A stretch of 64,000 nt of DNA, from assembly GCF_022878925.1 (NCBI RefSeq), contig NZ_CP084630.1, forward strand, positions 112,553 to 176,552, read 5' to 3'. Under the pieces are notes generated by a model. That model saw nothing but the letters and a program-made list of their open reading frames with translations. It had not been told where the DNA came from and did not search any database. Source of the DNA: Caballeronia sp. TF1N1. GTDB taxonomy: Bacteria; Pseudomonadota; Gammaproteobacteria; Burkholderiales; Burkholderiaceae. A program made the position numbers and the translations under genes. Position 1 is the first letter of the stretch; every line of letters begins with the position of its first letter. This document shows positions 28,424-60,026 of this stretch, one piece after another.

Positions 28424-28472
28424 TTGACATCGAAGGTTGAGCACCGCAGTATATCAATGGTTCATCCAATGA
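28424..28472 (+). promoter_or_regulatory. Promoter and operator 1 of the island-wide regulon
   Basis: TTGACA (28424-28429), a TATA-like -10 near 28448-28455, then the 19-bp operator TCAATGGTTCATCCAATGA (28454-28472), overlapping the -10 and start region. It serves the CoA-transferase/P450 operon. The 19 bases are the exact reverse complement of the site at 58673. Confidence 0.8.
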
Positions 28473-28578
28473 CTTTTCTACGTTTTGGATGTATCAGACA
28501 AAAGATCATTCGCCGGGGCCATGTAGTCGAGCAGAAGTCACCTACGTCCCGGCATGCGCAAAAACAGGAGAAGAAACG

Positions 28579-29769
28579 ATGAAGGGCGCACTTGAGGGTC
28601 TCAAGGTCCTCGATTTCACGCAGATGATGAACGGCCCGTTCGGCACCATGTTGCTGGGCGATTTCGGCGCCGACGTCATCAAGGTCGAACCGCCGCAGGG
28701 CGACACGATGAGGCTGACCGGCGAGACTTTCCTGGGCGACGACGCGGTGTACTTCCTCACGCTGAATCGCAACAAGCGCAGCGTCGTGATCGATCTGACG
28801 ACCGAAGAAGGGCAGCGGCTCGCCGGCAAGATTGCCGAACAGGTCGATATCGTCGTCGAAAATTTCCGGCCGGGTGTGGCCGAGAAGCTGGGGATCAGCT
28901 ACGAAAAGCTGGCGGCGTCGAATCCGCGTCTGATCTATTGTTCGACGTCCGCGTTCGGCCGCACCGGTCCGGACAGTTTCCGTCCCGGCATGGACCCGGT
29001 CGTGCAGGCGATGTCCGGCATCATGCAACTCACCGGCGACGCGCAGACCGGCCCGCTCAAGACGGGCATGCCCTACGCCGATCTGATCACGCCGCTGTTG
29101 TCGACCATCGGCGTGATGGCGGCGATCGAGGCGCGCAACAAGACCGGGCGCGGCCAGCGTATCGATTTGTCGATGATCGACGCCACCATCTTCAGCATGA
29201 TTCCGCGCGACGCGTATTACTTCGCCACCGGCGAGACGCCGGGCCGCATCGGCAATGCGCATTGGCAGATCGTGCCGTACAACACGTACGCGACCTCCGA
29301 CGATCGTCACATCATGGTGATCGCGCATACGGACAAGTTCTGGCGCGTGCTGGCCGAAGCGGTCGGTGCGCATGAATTGCTGGCCGACGAGCGCCTTGCA
29401 AGCAAGGACGGACGCCTCGCGCACCGCGATATCGTCGATGCGGGTTTGTCGGCTGCGTTCGCGAAGATGCCGCTTGCGCACTGGAACGAGACCTTGCTGA
29501 AAGCGCACGCGATGTTCTCGCCCGTGCTCAACTTCGAGGAAGTCTTCGAGGACCCGCGCGTGCAGCGCGATCTCGTCGCCGAACTCGATCATCCGAGTGC
29601 CGGGCGCTTCAAGGTCGTGACCAATCCGCTGCGCCTGTCCGATACCCCGACCAGCATTCGCCGTCCTCCGCCGACGGTTGGTCAGCATACCGAAGAAGTG
29701 CTGCGTGAATTCGGTATCGATCCCGCCGACTTTGCCGCGCCGGCCGCGACTGCTGGAGCGCAGGGATGA
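28579..29769 (+). CDS. CaiB/BaiF-family (class III) CoA-transferase, subunit 1
   Basis: 396 aa from ATG 28579, RBS GGAGAAGAAACG. The fold is shown by LEGLKVLDFTQMMNGPFGTM, LGDFGADVIKVEPPQGD, LNRNKRSVVIDL and FGRTGPDSFRPG. The catalytic Asp that forms the acyl anhydride is Asp168 in GMPYADLITP. It moves CoA from a donor thioester to a carboxylic acid. The next gene is a second family member starting in a four-base ATGA overlap, as in two-subunit transferases (BbsEF-like), so the two may be one enzyme. It probably activates the acid made by the downstream P450/dehydrogenases. Confidence 0.9.
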   Translation: MKGALEGLKVLDFTQMMNGPFGTMLLGDFGADVIKVEPPQGDTMRLTGETFLGDDAVYFLTLNRNKRSVVIDLTTEEGQRLAGKIAEQVDIVVENFRPGVAEKLGISYEKLAASNPRLIYCSTSAFGRTGPDSFRPGMDPVVQAMSGIMQLTGDAQTGPLKTGMPYADLITPLLSTIGVMAAIEARNKTGRGQRIDLSMIDATIFSMIPRDAYYFATGETPGRIGNAHWQIVPYNTYATSDDRHIMVIAHTDKFWRVLAEAVGAHELLADERLASKDGRLAHRDIVDAGLSAAFAKMPLAHWNETLLKAHAMFSPVLNFEEVFEDPRVQRDLVAELDHPSAGRFKVVTNPLRLSDTPTSIRRPPPTVGQHTEEVLREFGIDPADFAAPAATAGAQG

Positions 29770-31025
29770 GCGCCACCATGGACGCGGCTGCATCGCCCAC
29801 GCAGGACGGTTTGCCGCCGCTGGCGAAGCACGAACCGCCCTTGAAAGGCGTGCGCGTGCTCGATCTGTCGCGCGTGCTGGCAGCACCGTTCTCCGCGATG
29901 ATGCTCGCCGATCTCGGCGCCGAGGTCATCAAGGTCGAGCATCCGAGAGGCGGCGACCAGACGCGTCACTGGGGCACGGCGATTCAGGGCGGCGAGCGCA
30001 CCTACTATCTGGCGATCAATCGCAACAAGCAGTCGGTCGCGATCGACTTTTCGAAGCCCGAAGGCGTGGCGCTCGTGAAGTCGCTTGCGCGGCAGAGCGA
30101 CATCCTCGTCGAAAACTATCTGCTGGGTACGCTCGAACGTTACGGTCTCGGCTACGAAGCGCTGAAAGCCGAAAATCCGAAGCTGATCTATTGCTCGGTG
30201 AGCGGCTACGGACGTACCGGTCCGGACGCGGCGCGCCCCGGTTACGACTCGGTCATTCAGGCCGAAAGCGGTCTGATGTCGATCACCGGCGAACCGGAAG
30301 GCGAAGCCTCGAAAGCCGGCGTGCCGATCTGCGATATCACCGCCGGCATGTACGCGACGCAGGCCATTCTCGCGGCTTTCGTGCGCCGCCTGCGCAACGG
30401 CCACGGCGAGGCGATCGATATCGCGCTGTTCGACTGCACGCTCGCCAATCACGTGTCGGTGGCGGCCAATGCGCTGTTGCTGAACAAAGCGCCCGGACGC
30501 TATGGCAACAGTCACGCCGACATCATTCCGCAAGGGCTTTATCACGCAGCAGATGGCCCGCTGATGTTCCACGTCGGCAGCGATCAGCAGTTCGCACGCT
30601 TTTGCGCCGACGTGCTCGGTTTGCCGGAGCTCTCGAAAGACCCGCGTTTCCTCGATAACGACGGCCGCCGCGCCAACCGCGATGCGCTCGACGAGATCAT
30701 GTCCGCGCGCTTCCTCACACGCTCGCGCCTCGAATGGCTGCCGCTGTTTCGCGCGGCGGGCGTACCGGCGGGACTCGTGCAGAACGTGCTCGAAGCACTG
30801 ACGTCCGATCAGGCGAAGGCGCGCGAGATGGTCTGCGAAATCGATCATCCGACTGCCGGGCGCATCAGCCTCGTGAACTCGCCGCTAAAGCTCGAGGAAA
30901 GCTCGCTGGCCGCGCCCAAAGCGCCGCCGCTGTTGGGCGAACACACCGACCGCATTCTCGGCGAGCGGCTCGGACTGGACGACGCGGCCATCGCGCGTTT
31001 GCGCGCTGCGAATATCGTTTATTGA
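29766..31025 (+). CDS. CaiB/BaiF-family CoA-transferase, subunit 2
   Basis: 419 aa, start overlapping the previous stop (ATGA). A 25-residue extension precedes the usual VRVLDLSRVLAAPFSAMMLA start. The family motifs LGAEVIKVEHPRGGD, AINRNKQSVAIDF and GYGRTGPDAARPGYD are present, with catalytic Asp190 in GVPICDITAG. Both copies thus keep their active Asp, unlike some heteromeric enzymes where one subunit is dead. The likely role is CoA transfer to the pathway acid. It is followed after 20 bases by the P450. Confidence 0.9.
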   Translation: MSATMDAAASPTQDGLPPLAKHEPPLKGVRVLDLSRVLAAPFSAMMLADLGAEVIKVEHPRGGDQTRHWGTAIQGGERTYYLAINRNKQSVAIDFSKPEGVALVKSLARQSDILVENYLLGTLERYGLGYEALKAENPKLIYCSVSGYGRTGPDAARPGYDSVIQAESGLMSITGEPEGEASKAGVPICDITAGMYATQAILAAFVRRLRNGHGEAIDIALFDCTLANHVSVAANALLLNKAPGRYGNSHADIIPQGLYHAADGPLMFHVGSDQQFARFCADVLGLPELSKDPRFLDNDGRRANRDALDEIMSARFLTRSRLEWLPLFRAAGVPAGLVQNVLEALTSDQAKAREMVCEIDHPTAGRISLVNSPLKLEESSLAAPKAPPLLGEHTDRILGERLGLDDAAIARLRAANIVY

Positions 31026-31045
31026 AATCATCAGGAGACCTAGTC

Positions 31046-32257
31046 ATGCAAGATCAGACCGCCGCGCCCGCATTCCCGATGCGCCGATGCCCCTTCGCGC
31101 CGCCGCAGGAATACGGCGAGATTCGCAAGCAGGAAGGACTCTCGCGCGTCACCATGCCCGACGGCACGCAGGCATGGATCGCGACGCGCTATGAAGACGT
31201 CCGCGCGATCCTCGGCGACAACCGGTTTTCCACCGTGCCGTCCACGCCGGGTTATCCGTTTATCGCACCGGCGCGCGCCTCGCTGCTGATGAACGAGCAT
31301 CCGCCGACCATCATTCGCATGGACCCGCCGGATCACACGCGCTATCGCCGCATGCTGACCAAGGAATTCATGGTTCACCATGTCGAAGCCATGCGGCCCG
31401 AGTTGCAGAACACCGTCGATATTCTGATCGACGAACTCGAAGCGAAAGGCTCGCCCGCCGATCTGTTCGAAGACTTCGCGCTCGCGGTGCCGACCACGGT
31501 GATCTCGCGCATTCTCGGCGTGCCCTATGAAGATCGCAATTTCTTCCAGGAGCGCAGCAAGGCCAAGCTCGATCTCACCGCCGATCCCGAAGTGCCGGTG
31601 CGCGCCGGTGCGGAAATGCGCGAATACCTCGACCGCCTCATCACCGAAAAGATGAAGGAGCCGGGCAATCGCAGCGATCTCATCAGCCGCCTGGTGACGA
31701 GTCAGGTCGTGCCCGGCCATATGACGCGTGAAGAAGCGCTCGCAACGGTCGAACTGCTGCTGATGGGCGGGCACGAAACCACCGCGAACATGATCGCGCT
31801 CGGTGCGCTGTCGCTGCTGCTCAATCCGGCGCAGAAAGATGCCTTGGTGGCCGATCCATCGCTAGTGCGCAATACGGTGGAAGAGATGCTGCGCTTTCAC
31901 ACCATCGTGCATTACAACGGGCCGCGCGTTGCGCTCGAAGACGTCACGGTGGCCGGCACGCAAATCAAAAAGGGCGAGGGCGTGCTCGCGCTTATCAGCG
32001 CCGCGAATCGCGATCCGAACGCGTTTCCCGAGCCGGATTCCTTCGATATCCATCGCGATGCGCTGCATCACGTTGCGTTCAGCTATGGCGTGCATCAGTG
32101 CCTCGGACAACCGCTCGCGCGCGCGGAATTGCAGATCGTTTTCACGACGCTGTTCCAGCGCTTGCCGAAGCTGCGGCTCGCGGTATCGCCCGAGGAAATC
32201 AAGTTCCGGCACGACGCGTTCGTGTACGGCGTGGGCGCGCTTCCCGTCGAATGGTGA
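31046..32257 (+). CDS. Cytochrome P450 (soluble bacterial class I)
   Basis: 403 aa, RBS AGGAGACC. The I-helix oxygen-activating motif GGHETT is at 241-246, the K-helix ExxR is Glu280-Arg283, and the heme ligand is Cys352 in FSYGVHQCLGQPLAR. HTRYRRML near residue 97 is the C-helix. Overall it resembles the CYP105/CYP107-type bacterial group. It hydroxylates the pathway substrate, taking electrons from the ferredoxin and reductase encoded next. The unusual Gly-Gly-His-Glu I-helix is normal in this group. The exact substrate cannot be deduced. Confidence 0.93.
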   Translation: MQDQTAAPAFPMRRCPFAPPQEYGEIRKQEGLSRVTMPDGTQAWIATRYEDVRAILGDNRFSTVPSTPGYPFIAPARASLLMNEHPPTIIRMDPPDHTRYRRMLTKEFMVHHVEAMRPELQNTVDILIDELEAKGSPADLFEDFALAVPTTVISRILGVPYEDRNFFQERSKAKLDLTADPEVPVRAGAEMREYLDRLITEKMKEPGNRSDLISRLVTSQVVPGHMTREEALATVELLLMGGHETTANMIALGALSLLLNPAQKDALVADPSLVRNTVEEMLRFHTIVHYNGPRVALEDVTVAGTQIKKGEGVLALISAANRDPNAFPEPDSFDIHRDALHHVAFSYGVHQCLGQPLARAELQIVFTTLFQRLPKLRLAVSPEEIKFRHDAFVYGVGALPVEW

Positions 32258-32289
32258 AGCGGCCAATTTCAAAGCAGAAGGAGACGGAT

Positions 32290-32487
32290 ATGAAGATCAA
32301 GGTAGACGCAACCAAGTGTATCGGCGCGGGATTGTGCGTGGTCGCAGCGCCCCAGGTGTTCAGCCAGAACGAGGACGACGGTCTCGTCATCGTGTTGCAG
32401 GAAAGCCCGCCGCCCGAGTTGCACGCGTCGGTGCGCGAGGCGGCGCGTCTTTGCCCGGCGCTCGTGATTACCTGTGAGGAAGAGTGA
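32290..32487 (+). CDS. [3Fe-4S] ferredoxin of the P450 system
   Basis: 65 aa, RBS AAGGAGACGG. The cysteines Cys10, Cys16 and Cys55 in KCIGAGLCVV and RLCPALVI give CX5C...CP, in which the second-position cysteine of a 4Fe-4S site is absent, so a [3Fe-4S] cluster is expected. This matches the small ferredoxins that feed soluble P450s. It sits between P450 and reductase genes and completes a three-component monooxygenase. Confidence 0.9.
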   Translation: MKIKVDATKCIGAGLCVVAAPQVFSQNEDDGLVIVLQESPPPELHASVREAARLCPALVITCEEE

Positions 32488-32520
32488 GTTTATTTCGATG
32501 CGTTCGATCGAGGTCGTGAG

Positions 32521-33765
32521 ATGACGGAGCGAGGCGTGGTGATCATCGGCGCAGGGCAGGCGGGCTATCAGCTCGCGGCCTCGCTGCGCGACGCGGGATA
32601 CACAAAGCGCGTGGTGCTGATCGGCGAGGAAGGGACCTTGCCGTATCAGCGTCCGCCCTTGTCGAAGGCGTTTCAGAGTGGCGCGTGCGAGGCGGAGCAT
32701 CTGACGTTTCAGGGCGAAGCGTTCTATGAGAAAGTTTCGATCGAACTGATGGCGGGCGTACGCGTGGAACGTGTCGAGCGTGAAGCGCGTTGCGTGCTGA
32801 CGGACGATGGACAGCGCATCGAATACGACGCGCTGGTCTTTGCCACCGGCGCGCGCAACCGTGCGTTCGCGGGCGTGCCGGATGCATCCGGCATCTTCGA
32901 TCTGCGTACGCTTCATCATGCCCGTGCACTGCGCGATGCGCTCGGTCAGGCGTCGAACATCGTCGTGATCGGTGCGGGTTTTCTGGGGCTGGAATTCGCC
33001 GCCGTGGCAGCGACGCGCGGTGTGCCGGCGACAGTGATCGAAGCCGGTCCCGCGCCGATGAGCCGCGCCGTGAGCGCACCCGTCGCGCAGGCATTTCGTT
33101 CGCATCACGAAACAATCGGCACCGGGTTTATTTTCGATGCCAGCGTGCGCGCCATCCACGCGCAGGACGGGCGCGTGAGCGGCGTGGAACTGGCGGATAA
33201 CCGGCATATCGTCGCGGATCTGGTGCTGATCTGCATCGGCGTGGTGCCGAACGTGGAACTCGCACGCGATGCAGGTTTGCCCACCGACAACGGCATCGTC
33301 GTCGATGAATCGCTTGCCACCACTGATCCGCATATCTTCGCGCTCGGCGACTGCGCTGCGTATCCGTCGAGATTCGCAGGCGGCCGATGCCGGATCGAGT
33401 CGGTGCAGAACGCGGTCGATCAGGCGCGCTTTCTCGCCGCACGACTTGCCGGACAGAACCCCGACGCGCCGCGCACCTTCGACGCCGTGCCGTGGTTCTG
33501 GAGCGATCAGGGCGGCGCGAAGCTGCAGATTGCGGGCCTCGGCATGCTGAACGCCGACGATATCGTGCTGCGCGGCGATCGTCCGGGCATGAAGTTCTCC
33601 GCCTACGGTTTCGCGAATGGCCGACTGATCGCGGTGGAGTCCGTCAATCGTCCGGCCGATCACATCGCGGCACGCCGTCTGATTGCAGCGGGCGCGCCCG
33701 TCACGCCGGAACATATCGCCGATGCCGCGTTGGATCTGCGCACGCTGCTCGAACCGGTCACCTAA
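32521..33765 (+). CDS. NAD(P)H-dependent ferredoxin reductase (FAD)
   Basis: 414 aa. FAD motif VVIIGAGQAGYQLAASLRD at the N-terminus, then YQRPPLSKAF, the NADH motif VVIGAGFLGLEFAAVAATRG, and the second FAD segment IFALGDCAAYPSR. This is the putidaredoxin reductase/rubredoxin reductase family. It passes electrons from NAD(P)H through the preceding ferredoxin to the P450. The start at ATG 32521 is preceded by GAGGTCGTGAG. Confidence 0.92.
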   Translation: MTERGVVIIGAGQAGYQLAASLRDAGYTKRVVLIGEEGTLPYQRPPLSKAFQSGACEAEHLTFQGEAFYEKVSIELMAGVRVERVEREARCVLTDDGQRIEYDALVFATGARNRAFAGVPDASGIFDLRTLHHARALRDALGQASNIVVIGAGFLGLEFAAVAATRGVPATVIEAGPAPMSRAVSAPVAQAFRSHHETIGTGFIFDASVRAIHAQDGRVSGVELADNRHIVADLVLICIGVVPNVELARDAGLPTDNGIVVDESLATTDPHIFALGDCAAYPSRFAGGRCRIESVQNAVDQARFLAARLAGQNPDAPRTFDAVPWFWSDQGGAKLQIAGLGMLNADDIVLRGDRPGMKFSAYGFANGRLIAVESVNRPADHIAARRLIAAGAPVTPEHIADAALDLRTLLEPVT

Positions 33766-33789
33766 AAAGAAGAGAAGGGATTCAACGTC

Positions 33790-35298
33790 ATGTCTAATGT
33801 TTTGTCATCCTCACGATATGCATCGCTCGGGGCGACGAGTGCGCGCTTTATCGGCGCGGCGCATCGCATGTTGATCGGCGGGCAATGGGTCGAAGCGCAG
33901 TCCGGCAAGACCTTCGATGTCTTCGATCCCGGCACCGGACAGGTCGTCGCGCGCGTGCCGGAAGGCGGCGCGGAAGATATCGATCTCGCCGTGAAAGCGG
34001 CCCGCCGCGCATTCGAAAGCGGTCCGTGGCCGCGCACCAGACCCGCCGATCGCACGCGCCTGCTGCTGAAGCTCGCCAATCTCATCGAAGCCCACGGCGA
34101 TGAGCTGGCCGAGATCGAAGCGGTCGATAACGGCAAGCCCGTCGCCATCGCCAAACGCGGCATTGCGGGCACGGCGGAAATGGTGCGCTACATGGCCGGC
34201 TGGGCGACCAAGCTGAACGGCGAGACAGTCGATGTCTCCGTGCCCGGCGAATGGCACGCGTACACATCGCGCGAGGCGGTCGGCGTGGTCGGGCAAATCA
34301 TCCCTTGGAATTTTCCGCTGTCGATGGCGATCTGGAAGCTCGCGCCCGCGCTCACGGTGGGCTGCACCGTCGTGCTGAAACCGGCGGAACAGACGCCGCT
34401 CAATGCGCTGCGGCTCGGGCAGATTATCGAGGAAGCGGGCTTTCCGGCGGGCGTGGTGAATATCGTCACCGGTTTCGGCGCGACGGCGGGCGCCGCGCTT
34501 GCCGCGCATGAGGATGTCGACAAGATCGCTTTCACCGGTTCCACCGCGACGGGCAAGCGCATTGTCGAGGCGTCGCTCGGCAATCTTAAGAAGGTGTCGC
34601 TGGAACTGGGCGGCAAATCGCCCGTGTTCGTCTTTCCCGACGCCGACCTCGAACGCGCCGCACCGGGCGCCGCCAACGCGATCTTCTTCAACGCCGGTCA
34701 GGTGTGCTCGGCGGGTTCGCGGCTCTACGTTCACAAGAAGGTCTTCGATCGCGTGATCGAAGGCGTGATCGCGCATGGCGATTCGATCACGGTCGGGCAT
34801 GGCCTCGATCCCGCCAGCCAGATCGGCCCGGTCATTTCGCGTCAGCAGCAGGAGCGGGTGGAACGCTATGTCGCGCTCGGCGAGGAAGAAGGCGCGCGAC
34901 GGCTCGGCGCTCCCCGCGCATTCGATTCAGACGGCTATTTCGTCGCGCCCTCCGTATTCGTCGATACCTCCGCCGACATGACCATCCGCCGCGAGGAAAT
35001 CTTCGGCCCCGTGGTCTGCGCCATGCCCTTCGACGACGACGATCTCGAACGCATCGCGGCTGAAGCGAACCAGACGGAGTTCGGCCTGTTCGCGGGCATC
35101 TGGACGCGCAATCTGTCGCTGGCGCACAAGCTGGCGCGGCGCATCAAGGCGGGTTCGGTATCGGTCAATGCGCATATGGTGAACGAACCGGCGCTGCCGT
35201 TCGGCGGCTACAAGCAGTCCGGCTGGGGACGCGAGCGCGGGCGCGAAGTGCTGGACCTGTACACGTCGATTAAAAGCGTGGCCGTGAACCTCGACTAA
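33790..35298 (+). CDS. NAD-dependent aldehyde dehydrogenase
   Basis: 502 aa. Cofactor-binding IIPWNFPLSMAIWKLAPAL and FTGSTATGKRIVEAS are visible, with general base Glu272 in LELGGKSP and catalytic Cys306 in NAGQVCSAGSR. The C-terminal PFGGYKQSGWGRE is the usual family end. It oxidises the aldehyde made from the P450 product, via the GMC or zinc alcohol dehydrogenase, to the acid that the CoA-transferases then activate. A close paralogue begins at 63472 at the right edge of the window. Confidence 0.93.
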   Translation: MSNVLSSSRYASLGATSARFIGAAHRMLIGGQWVEAQSGKTFDVFDPGTGQVVARVPEGGAEDIDLAVKAARRAFESGPWPRTRPADRTRLLLKLANLIEAHGDELAEIEAVDNGKPVAIAKRGIAGTAEMVRYMAGWATKLNGETVDVSVPGEWHAYTSREAVGVVGQIIPWNFPLSMAIWKLAPALTVGCTVVLKPAEQTPLNALRLGQIIEEAGFPAGVVNIVTGFGATAGAALAAHEDVDKIAFTGSTATGKRIVEASLGNLKKVSLELGGKSPVFVFPDADLERAAPGAANAIFFNAGQVCSAGSRLYVHKKVFDRVIEGVIAHGDSITVGHGLDPASQIGPVISRQQQERVERYVALGEEEGARRLGAPRAFDSDGYFVAPSVFVDTSADMTIRREEIFGPVVCAMPFDDDDLERIAAEANQTEFGLFAGIWTRNLSLAHKLARRIKAGSVSVNAHMVNEPALPFGGYKQSGWGRERGREVLDLYTSIKSVAVNLD

Positions 35299-35300
35299 CG

Positions 35301-37028
35301 ATGACAACCTTCGACACGATCATTGTCGGCGGCGGCTCGGCGGGCTCGGTGCTCGCCAACCGTCTTTCCGCCGATCCGGCGCGCCGCGTGCTGCTGTGCG
35401 AAGCGGGCGCGGACCTGCCGAACGACAAGCTGCCCGCTGCGATTCTCGACAGCTATCCGGGCACGGCTTATCTGAATCCCGCCTATCTGTGGCCCGAGTT
35501 GCGGGTCACCACCGTTGCGCCGGAACCCGGCTCCAAGGCCGCGCGCAAGCTGCGCAAATACGAGCAGGCGCGCATTCTCGGCGGCGGCTCGTCCATCAAC
35601 GGACAGTTCTTCAATCGCGGCGCGCCGACCGATTACGACGACTGGCAGGCGCGCGGCGTGACCGGCTGGAGCTGGGACGACGTGCTGCCGTACTTTCGCA
35701 AGGTCGAACGCGATCTGGATTTCGACGGCCCGCTGCACGGCGCGTCGGGGCCGATTCCCGTGCGCCGTATCCATCGCGATGTCTGGCCGGGACATGCCAC
35801 CGCCATTGCCACTGCACTGGCGGAATCGGGCTACGACTATCTGCCGGATCAGAACGGCGAATTCCGCGACGGTTATTTTCCGATCGCCATTTCCAACGTC
35901 GGCGAGAAGCGCGTGTCGGCCTCGATGGCCTATCTCGACGACGCCACGCGCGCGCGTCCCAATCTGACGATCTGGACCGGCGTGGAAGTATCGAACCTCA
36001 TATTCGATGGAAAGCGCTGCGTCGGCATTCGTCTGTCGGCACCGGGCAAGCCGTCCGAAGTCCGCGCGAACGAAGTGGTGCTGTCGGCGGGCGCGTTGCA
36101 GTCGCCCGCGATTCTGATGCGCTCGGGTGTCGGGCCGGCAGCGCATCTGCGCGCACATGGTATCGACGTGGTGCATGCACTCGAAGGCGTCGGACAACAT
36201 CTGATGGAGCATCCGTCGGTGGCGCTGGCATCGTTCATCAGGAAGGGCGCGCGCATCAACGCCGCCACGCGCCGGCACATCATGACCGGCTGGCGTTATT
36301 CATCGAAGATGGGCGGCGCTCCGGCCGGCGACATGTTCGTGTCGATCGTGACGAGGACGTCGTGGCATGCGGTGGGCGAGCGGATCGGCACCATGCTGAT
36401 GTACGTGAACAAGCCGTTCTCGAATACCGGCGAAGTACGGCTCGCATCGTCCGACTGGCGCGTCGCGCCCGAGATCGATTTCAACATGCTCGCCGATACG
36501 CGCGATCTCGACCGTCTGACCGACGGCTTCCGCCGCATGGCCGCCGTGCAGGCGCTGGCCTCGGTACGCGCCGTCACCGACAATCCGTTCCCCGCCAGCT
36601 ACAGCGAGAAAGTCCGTCAAGTGGCGATGCTCAGCCCGCGCAACAAACTCATTACCGATCTACTCGCCGCGCTGCTCGACGGTCCCGCGCCGCTGCGTCA
36701 TGTGCTGATGCGCAAGGTCATTGCAGGCGGTCCGACCCTTGCCGATCTGCTCGCCGACGAGGCCGCGCTGCGTGCCTTCGTGCGCGGCGCATGCGTGGGC
36801 GTGTGGCATCCGTCGTGTTCGTGCCGCATGGGCGCGGCCGACGATCCGCTCGCCGTCACCGACCCTGCAGCGCGCGTGCGCGGCGTGGACGGTTTGCGCG
36901 TGGTCGATGCATCGATCTTTCCGCATATCCCGAGCGGCAATCTCAACTTCCCGGTGATGATGGCCGCTGAAAAAATCGCCGACATGATGATCGCGCAGCC
37001 GCGATTCGCGGCCGCGCAAACGGCTTAG
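35301..37028 (+). CDS. GMC-family FAD alcohol oxidoreductase
   Basis: 575 aa, starting two bases after the aldehyde dehydrogenase stop. The FAD-binding IIVGGGSAGSVLANRLS, the GMC signature ARILGGGSSINGQFFNRG, the second signature GALQSPAILMRSGVGP and the active-site histidine in VWHPSCSCRMG are all present, with GNLNFPVMMAAEKIAD at the end. Choline dehydrogenase/alkan-1-ol dehydrogenase-like members oxidise primary alcohols to aldehydes without NAD. It likely takes the hydroxylated P450 product to the aldehyde. Its stop overlaps the convergent zinc alcohol dehydrogenase by four bases. Confidence 0.92.
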   Translation: MTTFDTIIVGGGSAGSVLANRLSADPARRVLLCEAGADLPNDKLPAAILDSYPGTAYLNPAYLWPELRVTTVAPEPGSKAARKLRKYEQARILGGGSSINGQFFNRGAPTDYDDWQARGVTGWSWDDVLPYFRKVERDLDFDGPLHGASGPIPVRRIHRDVWPGHATAIATALAESGYDYLPDQNGEFRDGYFPIAISNVGEKRVSASMAYLDDATRARPNLTIWTGVEVSNLIFDGKRCVGIRLSAPGKPSEVRANEVVLSAGALQSPAILMRSGVGPAAHLRAHGIDVVHALEGVGQHLMEHPSVALASFIRKGARINAATRRHIMTGWRYSSKMGGAPAGDMFVSIVTRTSWHAVGERIGTMLMYVNKPFSNTGEVRLASSDWRVAPEIDFNMLADTRDLDRLTDGFRRMAAVQALASVRAVTDNPFPASYSEKVRQVAMLSPRNKLITDLLAALLDGPAPLRHVLMRKVIAGGPTLADLLADEAALRAFVRGACVGVWHPSCSCRMGAADDPLAVTDPAARVRGVDGLRVVDASIFPHIPSGNLNFPVMMAAEKIADMMIAQPRFAAAQTA

Positions 37029-38194: not shown

Positions 38195-38247
38195 TTGACA
38201 GCGGAAAATGCACGCTTCTATGATAAATGCAATGGTTCATCCAATGA
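38195..38247 (+). promoter_or_regulatory. Promoter and operator 2 of the regulon (ABC transporter operon)
   Basis: TTGACA (38195-38200), 18 bases, TATGAT (38219-38224), then GCAATGGTTCATCCAATGA (38229-38247), at about +1 to +20. It has the clearest promoter of the set and fits repression by roadblock. Confidence 0.82.
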
Positions 38248-38315
38248 TAAAAGTAACGATTGTCAAAGGTTAAAAACAATCCTGATTCCGCTTTCAAAAG
38301 TTGAGGAGACAAACA

Positions 38316-39548: not shown

Positions 39549-39573
39549 CGCGGTCTGACATAAGGCCTTTCCA

Positions 39574-48503: not shown

Positions 48504-48517
48504 ATTCAGGAGTTCAT

Positions 48518-49660: not shown

Positions 49661-49698
49661 GAACGGAAAGCGCCTTCTGAAGCGGAGAAACGGAAAAC

Positions 49699-51380: not shown

Positions 51381-51404
51381 ATTCAACTCAAGCGGAGGAC
51401 CGCC

Positions 51405-52463: not shown

Positions 52464-52493
52464 ACCAATGAGGACATAGAGGGGAGAATGAAG

Positions 52494-54149
52494 ATGCAAA
52501 CACCGGTATTGATCGTAGGAGCGGGTCCGATCGGACTCGCGCTCGCCGGCGACCTGGGCTTTCGCGGCGTGCCGTGCATGCTGATCGAGCGCAGCGATGG
52601 TCAGGTGGTCCAGCCGAAGATGGACATGATCGGCGTGCGGACAATGGAATATTGCCGCCGCTGGGGCATCGTGCCGTGGGTGCACGAAGCGGGCTACAAC
52701 CGCGAATATCCGCAGGATTGCGCGTGGGTCACGACGCTGACCGGCTACGAGTTCGGCCGCGAAGTTTTTCCCGCGCCGAAGGACGAAAAGTGCCCGCCGC
52801 AGAGCCCGCAGAAACGCGAGCGCTGCCCACAGAATTTCTTCGATCCGGTATTGCGCCGCTTTGCCGAGCGTTCGTCGCTGGCGACCATCGAATATCACAC
52901 GGAGCTGGCCGGGTTCGTCGAAACGGAAGACGGCGTGAACGTGCGTCTGCGCGATGTCCGTACCGGCGAGGAACGCACGGTCGATGCGCAATACCTCGTC
53001 GGTTCGGACGGTGGCGCGAGTGTCGTGCGTCAGGCGCTGGGCATTCAGATGACCGGCGAGGCGACACTTACCTATACGACCAATGTCGTGTTTCGCACCA
53101 AGGATCTCGAAGCGCTGCATGACAAGAAGCGCGCGTATCGGTATATCTTTATCGGTCCGGAAGGCACGTGGGCGACGTTGGTGGCCATCAATGGCCGCGA
53201 TCAGTGGCGCTTCTCGCTGGTCGGCGACGATACGCGTCAGACGCACGACGAGGAACATATGCGCCGCGCGATCGTGCGCGCCGTGGGCCGCGAATTCGAC
53301 TTCGAGATTCTGTCGATGCTGCCGTGGGTGCGGCGTCAACTGGTCGCGGATACGTACGGCACGAAGCGCGTTTTTATCGCCGGCGATGCGGCGCATCTGA
53401 CCTCGCCGACGGGTGGTTTCGGCATGAACACGGGCATTCAGGACGCGGTGAATCTGTCGTGGAAACTCGCGGCGATGTTGCAGGGATGGGGCGGCGAACA
53501 TTTGCTCGATACCTACGAGTCGGAGATGCGTCCCGTGGCAATCCGCAACGTGGCCGAAGCAACCGGCAATCTGAAGCGCATGTTGTCGCCGCGTGTCGTG
53601 TCGCCCTCCGCAGCGATTTTCGACGAAGGGCCGGAAGCCGATGCGGCGCGCATCGAATTCGGTAATGCGTACACCGAACTGATGAAGCGCGAATGGTTTT
53701 CCATCGGCATCCATCTGGGTTATATGTACGAAGGCTCGCCGATCGTGGTCCCGGACGGCACGCCGCAACCCGCCGACGAAGTATCGAGCTATGTGCAGAC
53801 CGCGCGGCCGGGATCGCGCGCGCCGCATGTATGGCTCGAAGAAGGCCGCTCGACGCTCGATCTGTTCGGTAAGTCGTTCGTGCTGATGTGCTTCGGCGAC
53901 AACCGCGTAGGCGTCGATGCGATAACGGATGCCGCGCGCGCCGCCGGCGTGCCGTTCGAGGTCGCGCGGATCGATCATGCGCAGGCGCGCGCCTTGTACG
54001 AGCGCGACTTCGTGCTGGTCCGTCCCGACGGCACCGTGGCGTGGCGCGGCGATGCGCTGCCGGAAGACGCGGGCACGTTGATCGATACGGTGCGCGGCGT
54101 GTATGCGCAACAGGCTGCCAGCGCACAGGAAGCGCGGAACGCAGCGTAA
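52494..54149 (+). CDS. FAD-dependent aromatic hydroxylase (MhpA/phenol hydroxylase-like)
   Basis: 551 aa from ATG 52494, eight bases after GGGGAG; ATG 52488 is too near the RBS. GxGxxG in PVLIVGAGPIGLALAGDLGF, the DG motif YLVGSDGGASVVRQALG, and the GD motif RVFIAGDAAHLTSPTGGFGM followed by NTGIQDAVNLSWKLAAM are all typical group A monooxygenase motifs. A C-terminal thioredoxin-like domain (VLMCFGDNRVGVDAITDAAR) is as in MhpA. It hydroxylates an aromatic ring, presumably to the substrate of the cupin dioxygenase upstream. Last gene of the operon. Confidence 0.92.
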   Translation: MQTPVLIVGAGPIGLALAGDLGFRGVPCMLIERSDGQVVQPKMDMIGVRTMEYCRRWGIVPWVHEAGYNREYPQDCAWVTTLTGYEFGREVFPAPKDEKCPPQSPQKRERCPQNFFDPVLRRFAERSSLATIEYHTELAGFVETEDGVNVRLRDVRTGEERTVDAQYLVGSDGGASVVRQALGIQMTGEATLTYTTNVVFRTKDLEALHDKKRAYRYIFIGPEGTWATLVAINGRDQWRFSLVGDDTRQTHDEEHMRRAIVRAVGREFDFEILSMLPWVRRQLVADTYGTKRVFIAGDAAHLTSPTGGFGMNTGIQDAVNLSWKLAAMLQGWGGEHLLDTYESEMRPVAIRNVAEATGNLKRMLSPRVVSPSAAIFDEGPEADAARIEFGNAYTELMKREWFSIGIHLGYMYEGSPIVVPDGTPQPADEVSSYVQTARPGSRAPHVWLEEGRSTLDLFGKSFVLMCFGDNRVGVDAITDAARAAGVPFEVARIDHAQARALYERDFVLVRPDGTVAWRGDALPEDAGTLIDTVRGVYAQQAASAQEARNAA

Positions 54150-54198: not shown

Positions 54199-55080
54199 TC
54201 AAGCTGCCGGATGACGCTCCAGAAACGGCAGAATCGCGCCGTTGAAGGCTTCGTTGCGATCACCTGCGATCATGTGCCCCGCGCCCGTCACGCGCCCGAG
54301 CTCCAGTTGAGGCAGAGCAGCACGCAATTCGTCGATACCTTCCTGACTCACCACATCGCTTTCCTCGCCGACGACCAGCATCGCCGGAATCGATACGCCC
54401 TTGCACATAGCGAGCAGCCGCGCGGCATGACGCTCGCGTGCGCCGTCGCCACGTTCGCGGAAAAAGCTCGGGTCCCAGTGCCAGTGCAGACGGCCGTCGT
54501 CACGCAGACGCAGGTTTTTCATCAGCCCGCGCGGACTCTTTGGGCGCGGCCGATGCGGATTGTAGGCGGCGACCGCATCGGCAGCTTCGTCGACGGTGGC
54601 GAAGCCTTCGCGATGCCCGTGCAGAAAATCGTGGACGCGCTTCAGGCCACGCGGATCGACACGCGGTGCGATATCCACCAGCACCACCGCACGGGCGCGC
54701 GGCGCGTCCGTGCGGGCGATGCTGTGCAGCGCCGTCATGCCGCCCATCGATGCGCCGATCATCGCGGGCACGCAGTCCATATGGCGCACGATGGCGTCGA
54801 GATCGTCCGCGAGGCGTTCGTATGAATAGTCGGGCTTGGACGACCAGTCGCTGTCGCCGTGACCGCGTGCGTCGTAGGCGAGGGCGTGATAGCCGAGCGC
54901 GCCGAGCGTGGCGACGCTGCCGCGCCACGAATGGCGCGTCTGCCCTGCGCCGTGCAGCAGGATAACGCCGGGCCGGCCGCGCTCGCCCGCAACGCTCGCC
55001 GCCAGCACGACGCCGTCGCCAGCGTCGATACGTACTTCGCTGACGGGCGCTTGCGCGGTGCCGAAATCCGCGCGCGTCAC
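54199..55080 (-). CDS. Alpha/beta-hydrolase fold protein
   Basis: 293 aa from GTG 55080, which overlaps the preceding stop in a GTGA arrangement. The fold is shown by GVILLHGAGQTRHSWRGSVA and ALAYDARGHGDSDWSSKPDY. The nucleophile Ser111 is in IGASMGGMTALHS, the acid in VVGEESDVVSQEG and the His in TGAGHMIAGDRNEAF. It cleaves an ester, thioester or C-C bond. It is in the operon with the FAH-family enzyme and the third CoA-transferase and so probably acts late in the pathway. Confidence 0.87.
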   Translation of the reverse strand: MTRADFGTAQAPVSEVRIDAGDGVVLAASVAGERGRPGVILLHGAGQTRHSWRGSVATLGALGYHALAYDARGHGDSDWSSKPDYSYERLADDLDAIVRHMDCVPAMIGASMGGMTALHSIARTDAPRARAVVLVDIAPRVDPRGLKRVHDFLHGHREGFATVDEAADAVAAYNPHRPRPKSPRGLMKNLRLRDDGRLHWHWDPSFFRERGDGARERHAARLLAMCKGVSIPAMLVVGEESDVVSQEGIDELRAALPQLELGRVTGAGHMIAGDRNEAFNGAILPFLERHPAA

Positions 55081-55994
55081 GATGCCGTGACGGCGGCCGG
55101 GTCCGGCGCCGTGCGCGATTTGTCCCACACCGGATGGCCGCCTTCCTCGCCCTGCACGACATCGAGCGTCATCGAGCCGACGTTGGCGATCTCGATCACG
55201 ACCTTGTCGCCATGCACGATCGGCCCGACGCCGGCCGGCGTGCCCGACGCGATGATGTCGCCAGGATAGAGCGTCATCACCGCCGAGGCCATGCGGATCA
55301 TCTCGGGAATATCGACGATCAGATCGCGCGTGCTGGCGTGTTGCCTGATCTCGCCATTGACCGACAGATTCAGGTCGATGGCCTCGTGATCGGGCACTTC
55401 ATCCCGTGTGACGATCCACGGGCCGACCGGGCAGAACGTGTCGTAGGACTTGCGCATCACGCGCTCTTCCTTGCCGCGCACCACCACATCGATCAGACAT
55501 GCATAGCCGAACACATGGTCGAGCGCGTTTTCGCGGCTGATCTGCCGTCCGCCTTTACCGATGATTACGGCCAGCTCGCATTCGTGATGAATCTGACGGC
55601 CCGGAATGTCGGGCAGGCGGATCGGATCGTTCGGACCACTGAGACTCGAATTGGCCTTGAGAAAGAAGCCTTGACCGTCCGCCTTGAACGGCGAGATCAG
55701 GCCGGTGCCGGACTTCATTTCCTCGACGTGGGCGTGATAGTTCGCCGGAAAGGCAATCACCTTGTTTGGCCACGCAACGGGCGTTTCCAGACGCACGTCG
55801 GCAAGTGGCTTGCGCGTTGCGCTGCGTGCGCGTTCGGCGAGCGACTCGCGCAGCGCGGGAAATCGATCGATCAGATGCAACATGCCGACGGGCGGCCATG
55901 CGCCTGGAGTAGCGTTGACGATGTCCGTGATATCGACGATCTCGCCGCCGTCCACGATACCGATGCGCCCGCCGTCGAAGCTTGCGAGTTTCAT
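55077..55994 (-). CDS. Fumarylacetoacetate hydrolase family protein
   Basis: 305 aa from ATG 55994 (RBS AAGGAGACACATC). The metal-site motif HHECELAVIIGKGGRQISRE holds the two Glu ligands, and the Asp ligand is in YACLIDVVVRGKEE. The GDIIASGTPAGVGP loop is as in FAH/fumarylpyruvate hydrolases. It hydrolyses the 1,3-diketone produced after gentisate-type ring opening (fumarylpyruvate or a substituted analogue). Overlaps the hydrolase gene by four bases. Confidence 0.9.
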   Translation of the reverse strand: MKLASFDGGRIGIVDGGEIVDITDIVNATPGAWPPVGMLHLIDRFPALRESLAERARSATRKPLADVRLETPVAWPNKVIAFPANYHAHVEEMKSGTGLISPFKADGQGFFLKANSSLSGPNDPIRLPDIPGRQIHHECELAVIIGKGGRQISRENALDHVFGYACLIDVVVRGKEERVMRKSYDTFCPVGPWIVTRDEVPDHEAIDLNLSVNGEIRQHASTRDLIVDIPEMIRMASAVMTLYPGDIIASGTPAGVGPIVHGDKVVIEIANVGSMTLDVVQGEEGGHPVWDKSRTAPDPAAVTAS

Positions 55995-56034
55995 GATGTG
56001 TCTCCTTGATCTACGGTGTATGCAATGGGTGGAA

Positions 56035-57162
56035 TCAAATTTCGCCGTCGTGCTCGCCGATGGCGGGCGGACCGAAGCGCGCGGCAAAACGCCGTTCGTC
56101 GAAGGTGGCGGGATAGCGCGCGGTGCGGATCGGTCCGACCGGCGAGGCAACGGTTTCGAACACGCGGTTGTGCGCCACTTGCGCATCGTCGAGGTAATCG
56201 TCGAGGGAGAACACGGGCGCGGCAGGCACGTCGAGGCTTTCGAAGCGCTCCAGCCAGAACGCCGTATCGCGCGTCTTCACGACCTCGCCCACGCGACGGA
56301 AAAATTCTTCCGCCATTGCCACCGGATCGCGCATCTGTTTGAACTCGTCCTTCCACTCGGGACGTTCGATCGCATTGAGCGTTTTCGACATCTGCGCGCC
56401 GTTGGCAGGCGAGATCACCACGTGCCCGTCCGACGTTTCCAGTACCTGGGATGCAGGCGGCTTCCACGCCGAGGTATCGCCCTCGAAGGTGCGATGCTGG
56501 TACATGTCGGGGAAGTTGAAGTAGCCCATCACGTCGAGCATCGGCAGTTTGACGTGTGCGCCGCGGCCGGTCTTTTCGCGCTCCAGCAGCGCGGCCAGAA
56601 TGGCTTGCGCGCCGAATACGCCGGTTACCTTGTCGACCATGTTGAAGGGCGTCACGGACGGCTTGCCGTTGCGGCCTTCGGCAGCGACGATGCCCGTGCG
56701 GCCCTGAATCAGCGAATCGAAGGCGGGCGCGTTGGCGAGCGCGCCGGTATCGCCGAAACCGTTGATCGACAGGCGCACCAGACGCGGGTTCAGTTCGGCC
56801 AGCACATCCTGACCCAGACCGAGCGATGCCGCCACGCGCGGCCGCCAGTTCTCCACCAGCACATCGGCCTGTGCGAGCAGATTCTTGAGGCGCGCGACGC
56901 CTTCCGCCGTCTTCAGATCGATGACCACGCTGCGCTTGCCGCGATTGGCATTGGTCCACGACGCGCCGTAGCCATCGCGGTTATGGCCGAACTTGCGAAA
57001 GCCGTCGCCGCCGGGCGGCTCGACCTTGATGACGTCGGCGCCGAGATCGGACAGCATCATCGAGGCGAACGGGCCGGTCAGAAAACTCGATGTTTCGACG
57101 ACGACCACGCCGTCGAGCGGACGGCCGGCGGTGTCGTGGGCGCGGGTTGGGGTTTCAGGCAT
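56035..57162 (-). CDS. CaiB/BaiF-family CoA-transferase (third copy)
   Basis: 375 aa from ATG 57162 (RBS ACGGAGATGTG). DGVVVVETSSFLTGPFASMM, LSDLGADVIKVEPPGGDGFR and ANRGKRSVVIDLKT are family motifs; the catalytic Asp is in VTPFNMVDKVTGVFG. It differs clearly from the two copies at 28.6-31.0 kb, so it should use another acid. It is the first gene of the minus-strand operon with the FAH-family and alpha/beta hydrolases, under the regulon operator at 57226. Confidence 0.9.
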   Translation of the reverse strand: MPETPTRAHDTAGRPLDGVVVVETSSFLTGPFASMMLSDLGADVIKVEPPGGDGFRKFGHNRDGYGASWTNANRGKRSVVIDLKTAEGVARLKNLLAQADVLVENWRPRVAASLGLGQDVLAELNPRLVRLSINGFGDTGALANAPAFDSLIQGRTGIVAAEGRNGKPSVTPFNMVDKVTGVFGAQAILAALLEREKTGRGAHVKLPMLDVMGYFNFPDMYQHRTFEGDTSAWKPPASQVLETSDGHVVISPANGAQMSKTLNAIERPEWKDEFKQMRDPVAMAEEFFRRVGEVVKTRDTAFWLERFESLDVPAAPVFSLDDYLDDAQVAHNRVFETVASPVGPIRTARYPATFDERRFAARFGPPAIGEHDGEI

Positions 57163-57225
57163 CACATCTCCGTTTCGGCAAACGATCGAACCATCGACCA
57201 CCAGATCGATTGTTCGTCTCTTTTT

Positions 57226-57286
57226 TCATTGGATCAACCAATGACATTTCCATCGCTATGTTGAGCGGCATGCGGCGCGATGTCAA
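57226..57286 (-). promoter_or_regulatory. Promoter and operator 5 of the regulon (third CoA-transferase operon)
   Basis: Operator TCATTGGATCAACCAATGA (57226-57244), the most symmetric of the seven. On the minus strand TTGACA lies at 57286-57281, with a weak -10 near 57263-57257. Confidence 0.78.
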
Positions 57287-57378: not shown

Positions 57379-58611
57379 TCAGAACTTGTGCCGGATACCG
57401 ATACGCGCCACCACCTGATTCTGCGTATTGGCCGGCGTGAGCGTGACGAGATAGGGCACGGCCGCCTGCTTGGTGGAATCGGTGCCCGAGCCCTTCATAT
57501 AAGCGGCCGCGAGATACACATCGGTGCGCTTCGAAAGAAAATAATCGAGCGAGGCATTGACGGTCTGATAGGCCGCGCTGTCCTTGCCGTTCACCGCGCC
57601 GCCGCGCAGATAGTTGTACGAGCCGCCCGCCACCAGCGCCGGCGTGATGAAGTAGGCCGCATAGACGTTGTAGTTGTTGAACGCGGCGTTGCCCGTGTAG
57701 CCGAAGGGATTGGTGAGCGACAGCGTGCCGGAAGCCGGATCATTCAGATCCTGAAAGCGAATATTTGAATAGCCCAGACCGAGGATGAAATCGCCCAGCG
57801 TGTACTGCGCCGCCGACGCGACGATCTGCATTCTGCCTGCCGACGCGAAGCCGCCGTAGATCGGATTGACCTGTACGCCGCTCGTCGGGCCGAGATTGTT
57901 GGCCGTGGTCGAACCCGTCGCGTTATTGCCGTAGAACGACTGGTTAGGATTGTTGATGTGCATGTAACCGGCCGCGATGCTGACCGGCCCGGTATCGAAA
58001 CGCCCGCCCACCGACCAGATGCTGTTGCGCCCGAACGATCCCGCCACGCCGCCGAGACTATACAAACCCGTGAGCGTCACGCCCGCGAACTTGGGGCTGG
58101 TGTACTTGATGGCATTGTTGATGCGCTGCGAATCCGCCACGTTGTCGATATCGCCCGGATGGTCGGCGAAGGCGCCGCCTGCATAGCTTCCTGCCTGCAT
58201 CGGGCCGATCATGTCGACGATCGAGTCGTACTGGCGGCCGAGCGACACGGTGCCCCATTTCGGCGTCGACAGGCTGATATACGCCTGACGCCCGAAGAAG
58301 GTGCCACCCTGCTGGAAGCGGCCCGTGCCGACATCGAAGCCATTCTCGATCACGAAGATGGCCTTGTAGCCGTTGCCCAAATCTTCCACGCCGCGCAGAC
58401 CCCAGCGCGATGCCTGCGCAAGCCCGGTAGTCATCGACCAGACCGAGGCGCCGGTGCGGCCGTTCGGGGCGCCGGCGCGGGCGGTCTGCGCGTTGTTCAC
58501 GTAGTTGATGCCTTCGTCGAGCAGACCGTACAGCGTCACGCTGCTCTGCGCCCACGCGCTGCCTGCGACTGTCAGCGCGAGCGCACCGAACAAGGGTTTC
58601 GCTAAGTTCAA
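57379..58611 (-). CDS. Gram-negative outer-membrane porin (porin_4/OmpC-like)
   Basis: 410 aa from a TTG start at 58611, six bases after CAGGAGACGAAA. The signal peptide LAKPLFGALALTVAGSAWAQ is cleaved before SSVTLYGLLDEG, the hallmark start of burkholderial porins. The constriction loop region MIGPMQAGSYAGGAFADHPG is present and the chain ends in the outer-membrane signature ARIGIRHKF. Substrate-specific porins of this type admit aromatic or organic acids. It is under the regulon operator at 58673 and so is probably induced with the island. Confidence 0.92.
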   Translation of the reverse strand: MNLAKPLFGALALTVAGSAWAQSSVTLYGLLDEGINYVNNAQTARAGAPNGRTGASVWSMTTGLAQASRWGLRGVEDLGNGYKAIFVIENGFDVGTGRFQQGGTFFGRQAYISLSTPKWGTVSLGRQYDSIVDMIGPMQAGSYAGGAFADHPGDIDNVADSQRINNAIKYTSPKFAGVTLTGLYSLGGVAGSFGRNSIWSVGGRFDTGPVSIAAGYMHINNPNQSFYGNNATGSTTANNLGPTSGVQVNPIYGGFASAGRMQIVASAAQYTLGDFILGLGYSNIRFQDLNDPASGTLSLTNPFGYTGNAAFNNYNVYAAYFITPALVAGGSYNYLRGGAVNGKDSAAYQTVNASLDYFLSKRTDVYLAAAYMKGSGTDSTKQAAVPYLVTLTPANTQNQVVARIGIRHKF

Positions 58612-58672: not shown

Positions 58673-58733
58673 TCATTGGATGAACCATTGACTTTGTTAG
58701 CTTTAATATGTGAGAGACGGTTTTTCGTGTCAA
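58673..58733 (-). promoter_or_regulatory. Promoter and operator 6 of the regulon (porin)
   Basis: On the minus strand TTGACA (58733-58728), 17-19 bases, CATATT/TATTAA -10 near 58710-58703, then the operator TCATTGGATGAACCATTGA (58673-58691), the exact reverse complement of the site at 28454. Confidence 0.85.
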
Positions 58734-58762
58734 ACGGCACAAACCCTAATCGGGCGATGCGC

Positions 58763-59959
58763 TCAGACGGCGAGACGGCGCGGCACGGCCTTGAACGATG
58801 CCCAGGCAATTGCACTGGAGACGGCTAGCGCGACGATCATGGAGAGCGTGGGGTTGCCGGGCGCGAGACTCACCGCGGCGGTGCACAGCGCGCCGTAGCC
58901 CATTTGCAGGCAGCCGTAGAGGCCTGCCGCCGCACCGACCACGGCCGGTTCGACGTCGAGCGCACTGCTGATGGCAAACGGACTGGACAAGCCGGTGCCG
59001 AAGAACATGACGATCATCGGCGCCATCACGGCGGTGACGGAGAGCACGTCGAAGTACCACGACACGAACAGGCTCAGTGACGCCACGCCCATGATGACGC
59101 TCGCGGCGATCAATGCCGTGCGCGCCGGGACCATGCCCGCGAGCCGCTTCGCCGTGGATTGCCCGGCGGCCAGTCCGACCACCAGCGCGAAGTAAGCGAA
59201 GCTGAAAGCCTGCGCCGATAAGCCCAGCCGCGCTTCCAGTATGAAGGGCGACGCCGATAAAAACGCATAGATGCCCGTCGTGGCGCTCGCACCGCCCAGC
59301 GCGTGAGCGAGAAACACCGGCGAGCGCAACAGCCGCAGATAGCTGCGCGCATAACGGCCCGCCGCGATATCGCGGGACGCCGTATGTGTTTCCGGCACCA
59401 GCAGCCACACGCTGACCAGCACGAGCACATTGGCAACGGAGAGCGCGAGAAAGATCGCGCGCCAGCCGAGATGCGCGACGAACTGCGCGCCGATCACGGG
59501 CGCCACCGCCGTGGCCACCGCCATCGCGATGCTGAGCGTGGCCAGCCGCCGGATCAGCGCGGTCGAGCCGGAACTATCGCGCGCAATGGCGCGCCCCAGC
59601 ACCAGCCCCGAACAGCCGCCGAGCGCCTGCGCCACGCGCGCGAATTCCAGACTTCTGAGCGACGGCGCGAAGGTGGCGGCAAGGCTGGCGAGTGCGAACA
59701 GCGTGAGACCGGCAAGCAGCACCGGCCGGCGTCCATAGCGATCGGATAGCGGCCCGTAGATCAGTTGCCCGATCGACAAGCCAATCACGTACAGCGTAAT
59801 CGTGAGGCCGATTCCTGCCGACGACGCCCCCAGTTCGCTCGCCGCCAGCGGCAACGCCGGCACGAACACATGCAGCGGAAAGGTGCCCGACAGCGTGATG
59901 CACACGAGAATGAACAGCGACGGCGCGCGGACTCGTGAGACGGCGGCAGGATCGTTCAT
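58763..59959 (-). CDS. MFS transporter, Bcr/CflA type
   Basis: 398 aa with twelve predicted membrane helices. The start SLFILVCITLSGTFPLHVFV and motif A IYGPLSDRYGRRPVLLAGLT after helix 2 are typical of Bcr/CflA drug exporters, as is the helix-4 and helix-5 region GGCSGLVLGRAIARDSS. It may export a toxic intermediate or the substrate itself. It is a single gene under the regulon operator at 59981. Confidence 0.88.
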   Translation of the reverse strand: MNDPAAVSRVRAPSLFILVCITLSGTFPLHVFVPALPLAASELGASSAGIGLTITLYVIGLSIGQLIYGPLSDRYGRRPVLLAGLTLFALASLAATFAPSLRSLEFARVAQALGGCSGLVLGRAIARDSSGSTALIRRLATLSIAMAVATAVAPVIGAQFVAHLGWRAIFLALSVANVLVLVSVWLLVPETHTASRDIAAGRYARSYLRLLRSPVFLAHALGGASATTGIYAFLSASPFILEARLGLSAQAFSFAYFALVVGLAAGQSTAKRLAGMVPARTALIAASVIMGVASLSLFVSWYFDVLSVTAVMAPMIVMFFGTGLSSPFAISSALDVEPAVVGAAAGLYGCLQMGYGALCTAAVSLAPGNPTLSMIVALAVSSAIAWASFKAVPRRLAV

Positions 59960-59980
59960 ATCGTTTGAATTGTCATTATG

Positions 59981-60026
59981 TCATTGGATGAACCATTAAT
60001 ATATGAATTCATGCAAGGCGCGTCAA
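59981..60026 (-). promoter_or_regulatory. Promoter and operator 7 of the regulon (Bcr/CflA transporter)
   Basis: On the minus strand TTGACG (60026-60021), 17 bases, TATATT (60003-59998), with the operator TCATTGGATGAACCATTAA (59981-59999) touching the -10. This is the best-spaced promoter of the group. Confidence 0.83.

Follow-up and report, generated by a model that had tools for sequence, protein, structure and literature searches.

Does one regulator govern a catabolic island whose genes fall into seven transcription units? The question is raised by a stretch of 64,000 nucleotides from Caballeronia sp. TF1N1 (contig NZ_CP084630.1, positions 112,553 to 176,552; hereafter the window, in whose coordinates positions are given unless another locus is named). 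It holds seven near-identical 19-bp dyads and a gene for a GntR-type regulator of the FadR subfamily (44469..45269, minus strand; PF00392 plus PF07729), the predicted repressor at these operators. An earlier reading of the letters (the original prediction) had proposed that this regulator controls the whole catabolic island through the dyads. We consider it highly likely that the seven dyads, and with them a weaker eighth before gntR, serve the island's own GntR as operators. One regulator, one 19-bp word and seven units would offer a regulatory handle on a cytochrome P450-containing catabolic pathway, and the sites would mark which genes belong to it.

Seven probable operators in one island

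The coordinates and sequences originally given for all seven 19-bp sites were correct on re-checking, operators 1 and 6 are exact reverse complements over 19 bp, and every operator precedes one gene group. Operator 1 (28454..28472, plus strand, TCAATGGTTCATCCAATGA) precedes the P450 operon, with TTGACA at 28424-28429 and a weak -10-like CAGTAT at 28447-28452. Operator 2 (38229..38247, plus) precedes a branched-chain-type ATP-binding cassette (ABC) importer operon, divergent from an alcohol dehydrogenase gene, with TTGACA at 38195 and TATGAT at 38219. Operator 3 (45410..45428, minus) lies before the gene for the major facilitator superfamily transporter MFS1 (45453, plus), divergent from gntR; it is reversed relative to MFS1 and has no TTGAC promoter. 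The lower operon, running from an enoyl-CoA hydratase to a FAD monooxygenase, follows operator 4 (46741..46759, plus; TTGACA at 46709, weak -10). The remaining three sites are on the minus strand: operator 5 (57226..57244) before the third CoA-transferase operon, with TTGACA 42 nt upstream and a weak -10, CAACAT; operator 6 (58673..58691) before the porin gene, with TTGACA-17-CATATT; and operator 7 (59981..59999) before MFS2, of the Bcr/CflA type, with TTGACG-17-TATATT, the -10 overlapping the operator by 2 bases.

Within the window, a search with the originally proposed consensus at up to three mismatches returns just these seven places (14 strand matches), and 100 shuffles of the window gave a mean of 0.05 and a maximum of two. 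The motif scan suggested for the replicon was run on the whole genome (7,070,108 bases in 9 contigs, the window being the final 64 kb of the 176,552-base contig C5) with the symmetric pattern TCAWTGGWTSAWCCAWTGA. Seven sites were found at 0-1 mismatch, all inside the window. The accompanying check for many copies in unrelated genes found none elsewhere at this level and one at two mismatches (C1:565895), an outcome that does not refute the original prediction. Three sites appear at three mismatches, and the same pattern written backwards, used as a control, has no match in the whole genome.

Operator position at the promoters

Promoters had been seen originally at five of the seven sites. Using TTGAC[AG], a 17- or 18-bp spacer and a -A---T hexamer as the criterion, we find them at six, the exception being MFS1, which has a TAAAAT-like -10 without TTGAC. 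The six TTGAC-type promoters all have the operator overlapping the -10 or downstream of it. The -10 hexamer ends up to 13 bases ahead of the operator (at CaiB3 and the porin) and at the other extreme overlaps it by 2 bases (MFS2); the operator thus covers or adjoins the expected start region, a position that appears to be a blocking one of the repressor type. The -10 matches are weak at three of the six (CAGTAT, AACTAT and CAACAT).

This geometry was followed in 63 promoter instances, hand-picked from 15 regions, the window's own included, by taking the site that precedes each of six units; sites fetched later from Ax-1724, Paracoccus and Pseudomonas were left out. All 63 instances have TTGAC in the 50 bp upstream, 42 of them at 32-34 bp, whereas shuffled upstream sequence gave TTGAC in 4.6% of trials. 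Across the six units the operator columns are 0.85-0.95 pairwise identical and the flanks 0.28-0.47, but the instances were chosen by motif score and the identity within the site is therefore partly built in, which weakens the case it makes for a regulon; the informative part of the comparison is the position of the site and the divergence of the flanks. Read along transcription, the instances give the consensus TCAAWGGTTSATCCAATGA, an imperfect palindrome, so that the consensus proposed originally was near right and slightly off.

Near-identical copies whose orientation is consistent relative to most genes might also be repetitive elements or duplicated promoter cassettes, with no operator function at all. 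We regard this as vanishingly improbable, since the flanks of the six TTGAC promoters, aligned on the site, share a mean identity of 27% (maximum 39%), and each site is kept at its own gene across genera while its flanks diverge.

The gntR promoter carries a candidate eighth operator (45281..45299, minus strand, TGAATGGATTAATCATTGA) 11 nt upstream of the gntR ATG at 45269. It has three mismatches, is one of the three genome sites at that level and is absent from the original prediction. A counterpart is found in all nine aligned Burkholderiaceae islands, our own included, the copy in genome G254 being more diverged, and over 13 instances its pairwise identity is 0.78 versus 0.37 in the flanks. 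GntR is probably autoregulated through this weak, conserved site.

Co-occurrence of sites and regulator

We surveyed 398 genomes of the family for sites at up to one mismatch and for GntR matches at E <=1e-30; 54 have a site and 25 a GntR match. All nine genomes whose GntR is at least 60% identical (the source genome included) have sites, and 36 of their 36 sites lie on island-carrying contigs. Regions L041-L046 and L052 are those of genomes G100, G254, G327, G366, G361, G071 and G091, and were counted once. In nine other Burkholderiaceae genomes, Ax-1724 among them, the corresponding units carry the site despite a rearranged gene order. Three genomes with a site and no close ortholog (G276, G296 and G397) each encode a GntR relative of 42-45% identity; in G296 and G397 the site immediately precedes the GntR gene, and in G276 it is 43 kb away. 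A near-identical site stands close upstream of the genes for four GntR relatives of 42-45% identity (no mismatch in L073, one in L070, two in L065 and L066).

The association extends beyond the family. Five to six sites at up to two mismatches occur in each of two Paracoccus and two Pseudomonas genomes, and 22 of these 23 sites are on the contig of the GntR, one being on another contig of Pseudomonas 10-1B. Gene order differs in these islands, and an operator is mostly retained at the hydratase, third CoA-transferase, CaiB1-side and importer units. The island hosts include several soil- or plant-associated bacteria and one bark-beetle Pseudomonas. Three genomes, PREW-6R, Pseudomonas 10-1B and P. 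typographi, encode a second GntR, 58-65% identical to that of the window, near which a similar site is found (L086:40100-42500, L159:5700-6500 and L161:6400-7250); heterodimers or divided control are possible where this second copy exists.

These genomes also bear on a second candidate, the TetR-family regulator whose gene (27136-27822) adjoins operator 1 and which might read the dyads while GntR regulates something else. In the nine other Burkholderiaceae genomes compared, the island does have a TetR relative of 64-90% identity next to it. However, at E 1e-20 no TetR match was found in either Paracoccus or in Pseudomonas 10-1B, and only one of 28% in P. typographi, yet the genomes without a close TetR still have five to six sites each. 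In the window itself there is no such 19-bp site within 600 bp of the tetR start, and a different dyad, TTGGTCAATTGACCA, is found there at 27941-27955. Control of the sites by TetR is hence very improbable.

The TTGGTCAATTGACCA dyad and a degenerate copy (27941-27978) lie upstream of the TetR gene and recur in islands that align there. It is possibly the TetR protein's own operator. As a motif it is weak: at two mismatches it has six matches against 2.9 expected, eight of 100 shuffles gave as many, and only one match is exact.

Because the sites stand unit by unit, are nearly exclusive to the island and travel with one regulator gene as far as distantly related bacteria, the seven switches and GntR very probably form, on this comparative evidence, a single on/off circuit for a degradation pathway.

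The regulator and its fit to the motif

GntR has an N-terminal winged helix-turn-helix (HTH) of PF00392 (69.2 bits, cut-off 27) and a C-terminal FCD domain of PF07729 (67.4 bits, cut-off 24.3). It stays under the cut-off of every one of the 25 NCBIfam models shown among the 29 matched. The best of these, the PdhR model NF007001, scores 102.7 bits, so far under its cut-off of 330 that GntR is none of the named regulators shown.

According to Suvorova et al. (2015; PMC4494728), from whom our statements on the subfamily are drawn, FadR-subfamily regulators (PdhR, LldR, GlcC and FadR type) have the operator TKGT-N3-ACMA, and Arg at HTH position 28 prefers G/C at operator positions 6/14, as Asn at position 39 prefers A/T at 9/11. 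All seven sites have G6, T9, A11 and C14, and GntR has Arg at HTH 28 and Asn at HTH 39, the numbering here and for its relatives being transferred by eye. R65 and R75 (HTH 28 and 38) are invariant in GntR and 10 relatives, as is the helix SRNTVRE. GntR also has Arg28, Arg38, Thr40, Arg42 and Glu43 of the Escherichia coli FadR table. The assignment of Gly at position 59 (G96) is ambiguous because the wing has a two-residue insertion relative to most paralogs.

The island resembles the subfamily further in its winged HTH plus FCD architecture, in a TKGT/ACMA palindrome with 3 nt between GT and AC, and in having sites in the divergon with the regulator gene. A TGG-N5-CCA core with the correct spacing is present in 7/7 sites (one half of site 4 is AGG). 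Every site has one canonical GT half of TKGT-N3-ACMA and only site 4 has both, so the FadR operator pattern is followed with a variant second half. Unlike the subfamily pattern, six of the seven island operators pair one TGGT with one TGGA half, in an orientation that is fixed at TTGAC promoters.

Could another GntR-type protein of the genome read the sites? There are 37 FCD matches in the genome, this GntR included; motifs can be common to related GntRs, and two close GntRs are present in each of PREW-6R, P. typographi and Pseudomonas 10-1B. Asn at HTH 39, however, occurs in none of the 25 other FCD proteins that could be aligned out of 36 (four gave no usable alignment and seven had no locus). 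Among the eight highest identities shown, which include the window GntR itself, the others are 32-38%, and across genera the sites follow the local gntR gene. A role for one or several of the 36 is very improbable. Taken with the co-occurrence, the retention across genera and the absence of a close TetR, the fit of residues to motif argues for GntR as the predicted reader of the dyads, as was originally proposed.

With regard to the effector, metal-binding FCD proteins coordinate the metal through three His plus Asp or Asn, according to a study of Atu1419 (PMC7797058). The corresponding set in GntR, as judged by alignment, is N179, H183, R225 and H247, which falls short of three His; membership of the FadR subfamily does not depend on such a metal site. 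At the position of R225, 24 of the 25 other aligned FCD proteins have His and one has Gln, and R225 is invariant in GntR and its 10 relatives. As a His ligand is replaced by R225, a metal-bound carboxylate appears less likely as the effector, and our guess would be either an acyl-CoA or a carboxylate bound through Arg225. Atu1419 itself, an FCD protein of the VanR group from hydroxycinnamate degradation in Agrobacterium fabrum, resembles what is proposed for GntR in being an FCD repressor of an aromatic catabolic region and in having several palindromes at promoters, a degenerate second site among them. It differs in binding the 10-mer ATGTATACAT and in its metal site of three His and Asn, whereas the island has a 19-bp dyad and Arg225 (PMC7797058).

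Counter-evidence, operator direction and the MFS1 promoter

Several observations speak against the proposed regulon. Of the 25 survey genomes with a GntR match, 13, all with relatives of 34-48% identity, lack any site at up to one mismatch; nine of these were searched at two mismatches, and six again had none, while G336, G380 and G291 had some, with the site beside the GntR gene in G336 and G380. Overall, the two-mismatch search gave matches in 11 of 17 genomes, and the backwards control matched once each in two of those 17, as it did in two of the 398 genomes at the stricter level. Site matches also occur in 45 of the 389 genomes that lack a close ortholog, 41 of these genomes being from one small-genome genus (g12). 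At the promoters, the MFS1 operator is reversed and TTGAC is missing, and some Paracoccus sites have no TTGAC upstream.

The g12 matches were considered as a second conserved regulon and rejected, as 15 of 17 loci read there lie inside one coding frame, RpoA by eye; the remaining loci, L033 and L034, are also in coding frames. Genome G066, which has no such GntR, has two site matches, and the one that was read is likewise inside a coding frame.

The direction of the operator is the one surprising feature of the system. Read along transcription, 54 of the 63 instances are forward (T8 and T12), eight symmetric (T8 and A12), one is of another kind and none is reversed, with T8 in all 63; the instances are related by descent, and direction is an observation and no proof of function. 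In the window alone only five sites at TTGAC promoters can be oriented, all in the same direction. Sites fetched later are for the most part in agreement. They are forward in Ax-1724 (three units) and in the Paracoccus dioxygenase and third CoA-transferase units; the last two have no TTGAC in the 50 bp upstream, which counts against a strict link between direction and TTGAC. T8/G12 sites precede the Paracoccus CaiB1 and P. typographi solute-binding protein genes, and three further Paracoccus sites are symmetric. Reversed sites without TTGAC precede the solute-binding protein gene of Paracoccus MKU1 and the second gntR of both Pseudomonas.

The MFS1 promoter (45385-45428 in the window) belongs with the reversed class. 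Its operator is reversed in 8/8 islands, TTGAC is found within 60 bp upstream in 0/8, and a GGTATAC element lies ~25 nt upstream in 7/8. The control of MFS1 may therefore differ from that of the other units, and these promoters are what favors an arrangement in which GntR binds the dyads as an activator, or activates some promoters and represses others. The blocking position of the operator at the six other promoters of the window stands against it, and we think activation unlikely.

It is tempting to speculate, though we hold it doubtful, that the operator is a directional hybrid in which, at TTGAC promoters, GGTT ends the promoter-proximal half and the distal half is usually TCATTGGAT in reverse, so that the GntR dimer is fixed in orientation and the promoter class is read out, perhaps by a GntR heterodimer where two copies exist. 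If so, one promoter class might, for example, be repressed and the other activated or timed differently. A conserved direction in a near-palindromic operator would in any case be an unusual detail of the contact between a FadR-type repressor and its promoter.

Proposed mechanism

Returning to GntR as a repressor of the island, we infer that it binds the dyads, that it represses rather than activates, and that a compound of the pathway induces. Without inducer, a GntR dimer would occupy each promoter's start region, either overlapping the -10 or directly downstream of it, and block initiation. A substrate or intermediate of the P450/CoA pathway would then bind the FCD domain and release GntR. 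Uptake (porin, ABC importer and MFS transporters), the P450 upper pathway, the CoA/aromatic lower pathway and gntR itself would be switched on jointly. Such a local FadR-type regulon is supported as far as sequence comparison allows and is ordinary in kind; its target is new as far as the literature was searched.

Genes of the island and limits of the regulon

Most enzymes are named here by family only, the ferredoxin, the membrane and ATPase parts of the importer, EtfB/EtfA and the porin are named by eye, and the operon structure of units 1, 2, 4 and 5 is inferred (from spacing in unit 1). Unit 1 (28489..37028, plus) comprises two family-III CoA-transferases, the P450, a small ferredoxin (32251-32487), a ferredoxin reductase, an aldehyde dehydrogenase and a GMC oxidoreductase. 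Unit 2 (38301..44452, plus) has a solute-binding protein, four LivHMGF-like importer genes and a FAD-binding oxidoreductase, and the alcohol dehydrogenase divergent from it is of the zinc type. MFS1 forms unit 3 (45453..46712, plus). Unit 4 (46776..54149, plus) contains an enoyl-CoA hydratase, a short-chain dehydrogenase/reductase, an acyl-CoA dehydrogenase, EtfB and EtfA, a gentisate-1,2-dioxygenase-like cupin protein and a FAD monooxygenase. On the minus strand are unit 5 (54199..57201), with the third CoA-transferase, an FAH-like hydrolase (matches below cut-off) and an alpha/beta hydrolase; unit 6 (57379..58611), the porin, recognized from its translation and conserved in the islands compared; and unit 7 (58763..59959), MFS2.

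Searches with the P450, monooxygenase, binding protein, acyl-CoA dehydrogenase and hydratase gave family-level matches only and did not identify a substrate; a plant-derived ring compound is our guess. No title among the papers listed in literature searches described such a P450-containing catabolic cluster, and in a plasmid record with a close island the stretch is un-annotated.

At the right edge of the window, MmgE/PrpD-like and MFS genes (60034-63138) are conserved with several islands and, within the window, lack this type of operator. As these genes are without a site of their own, the original extension of the regulon to the whole catabolic island was too wide.

The island of Paracoccus MKU1 adds four genes (L163:12979-18824), encoding, by eye, a PrpF-like protein, a metallo-beta-lactamase-fold hydrolase, a CoA ligase and a binding protein. 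Sites of the same motif directly precede three of them, and these genes may offer clues to the substrate.

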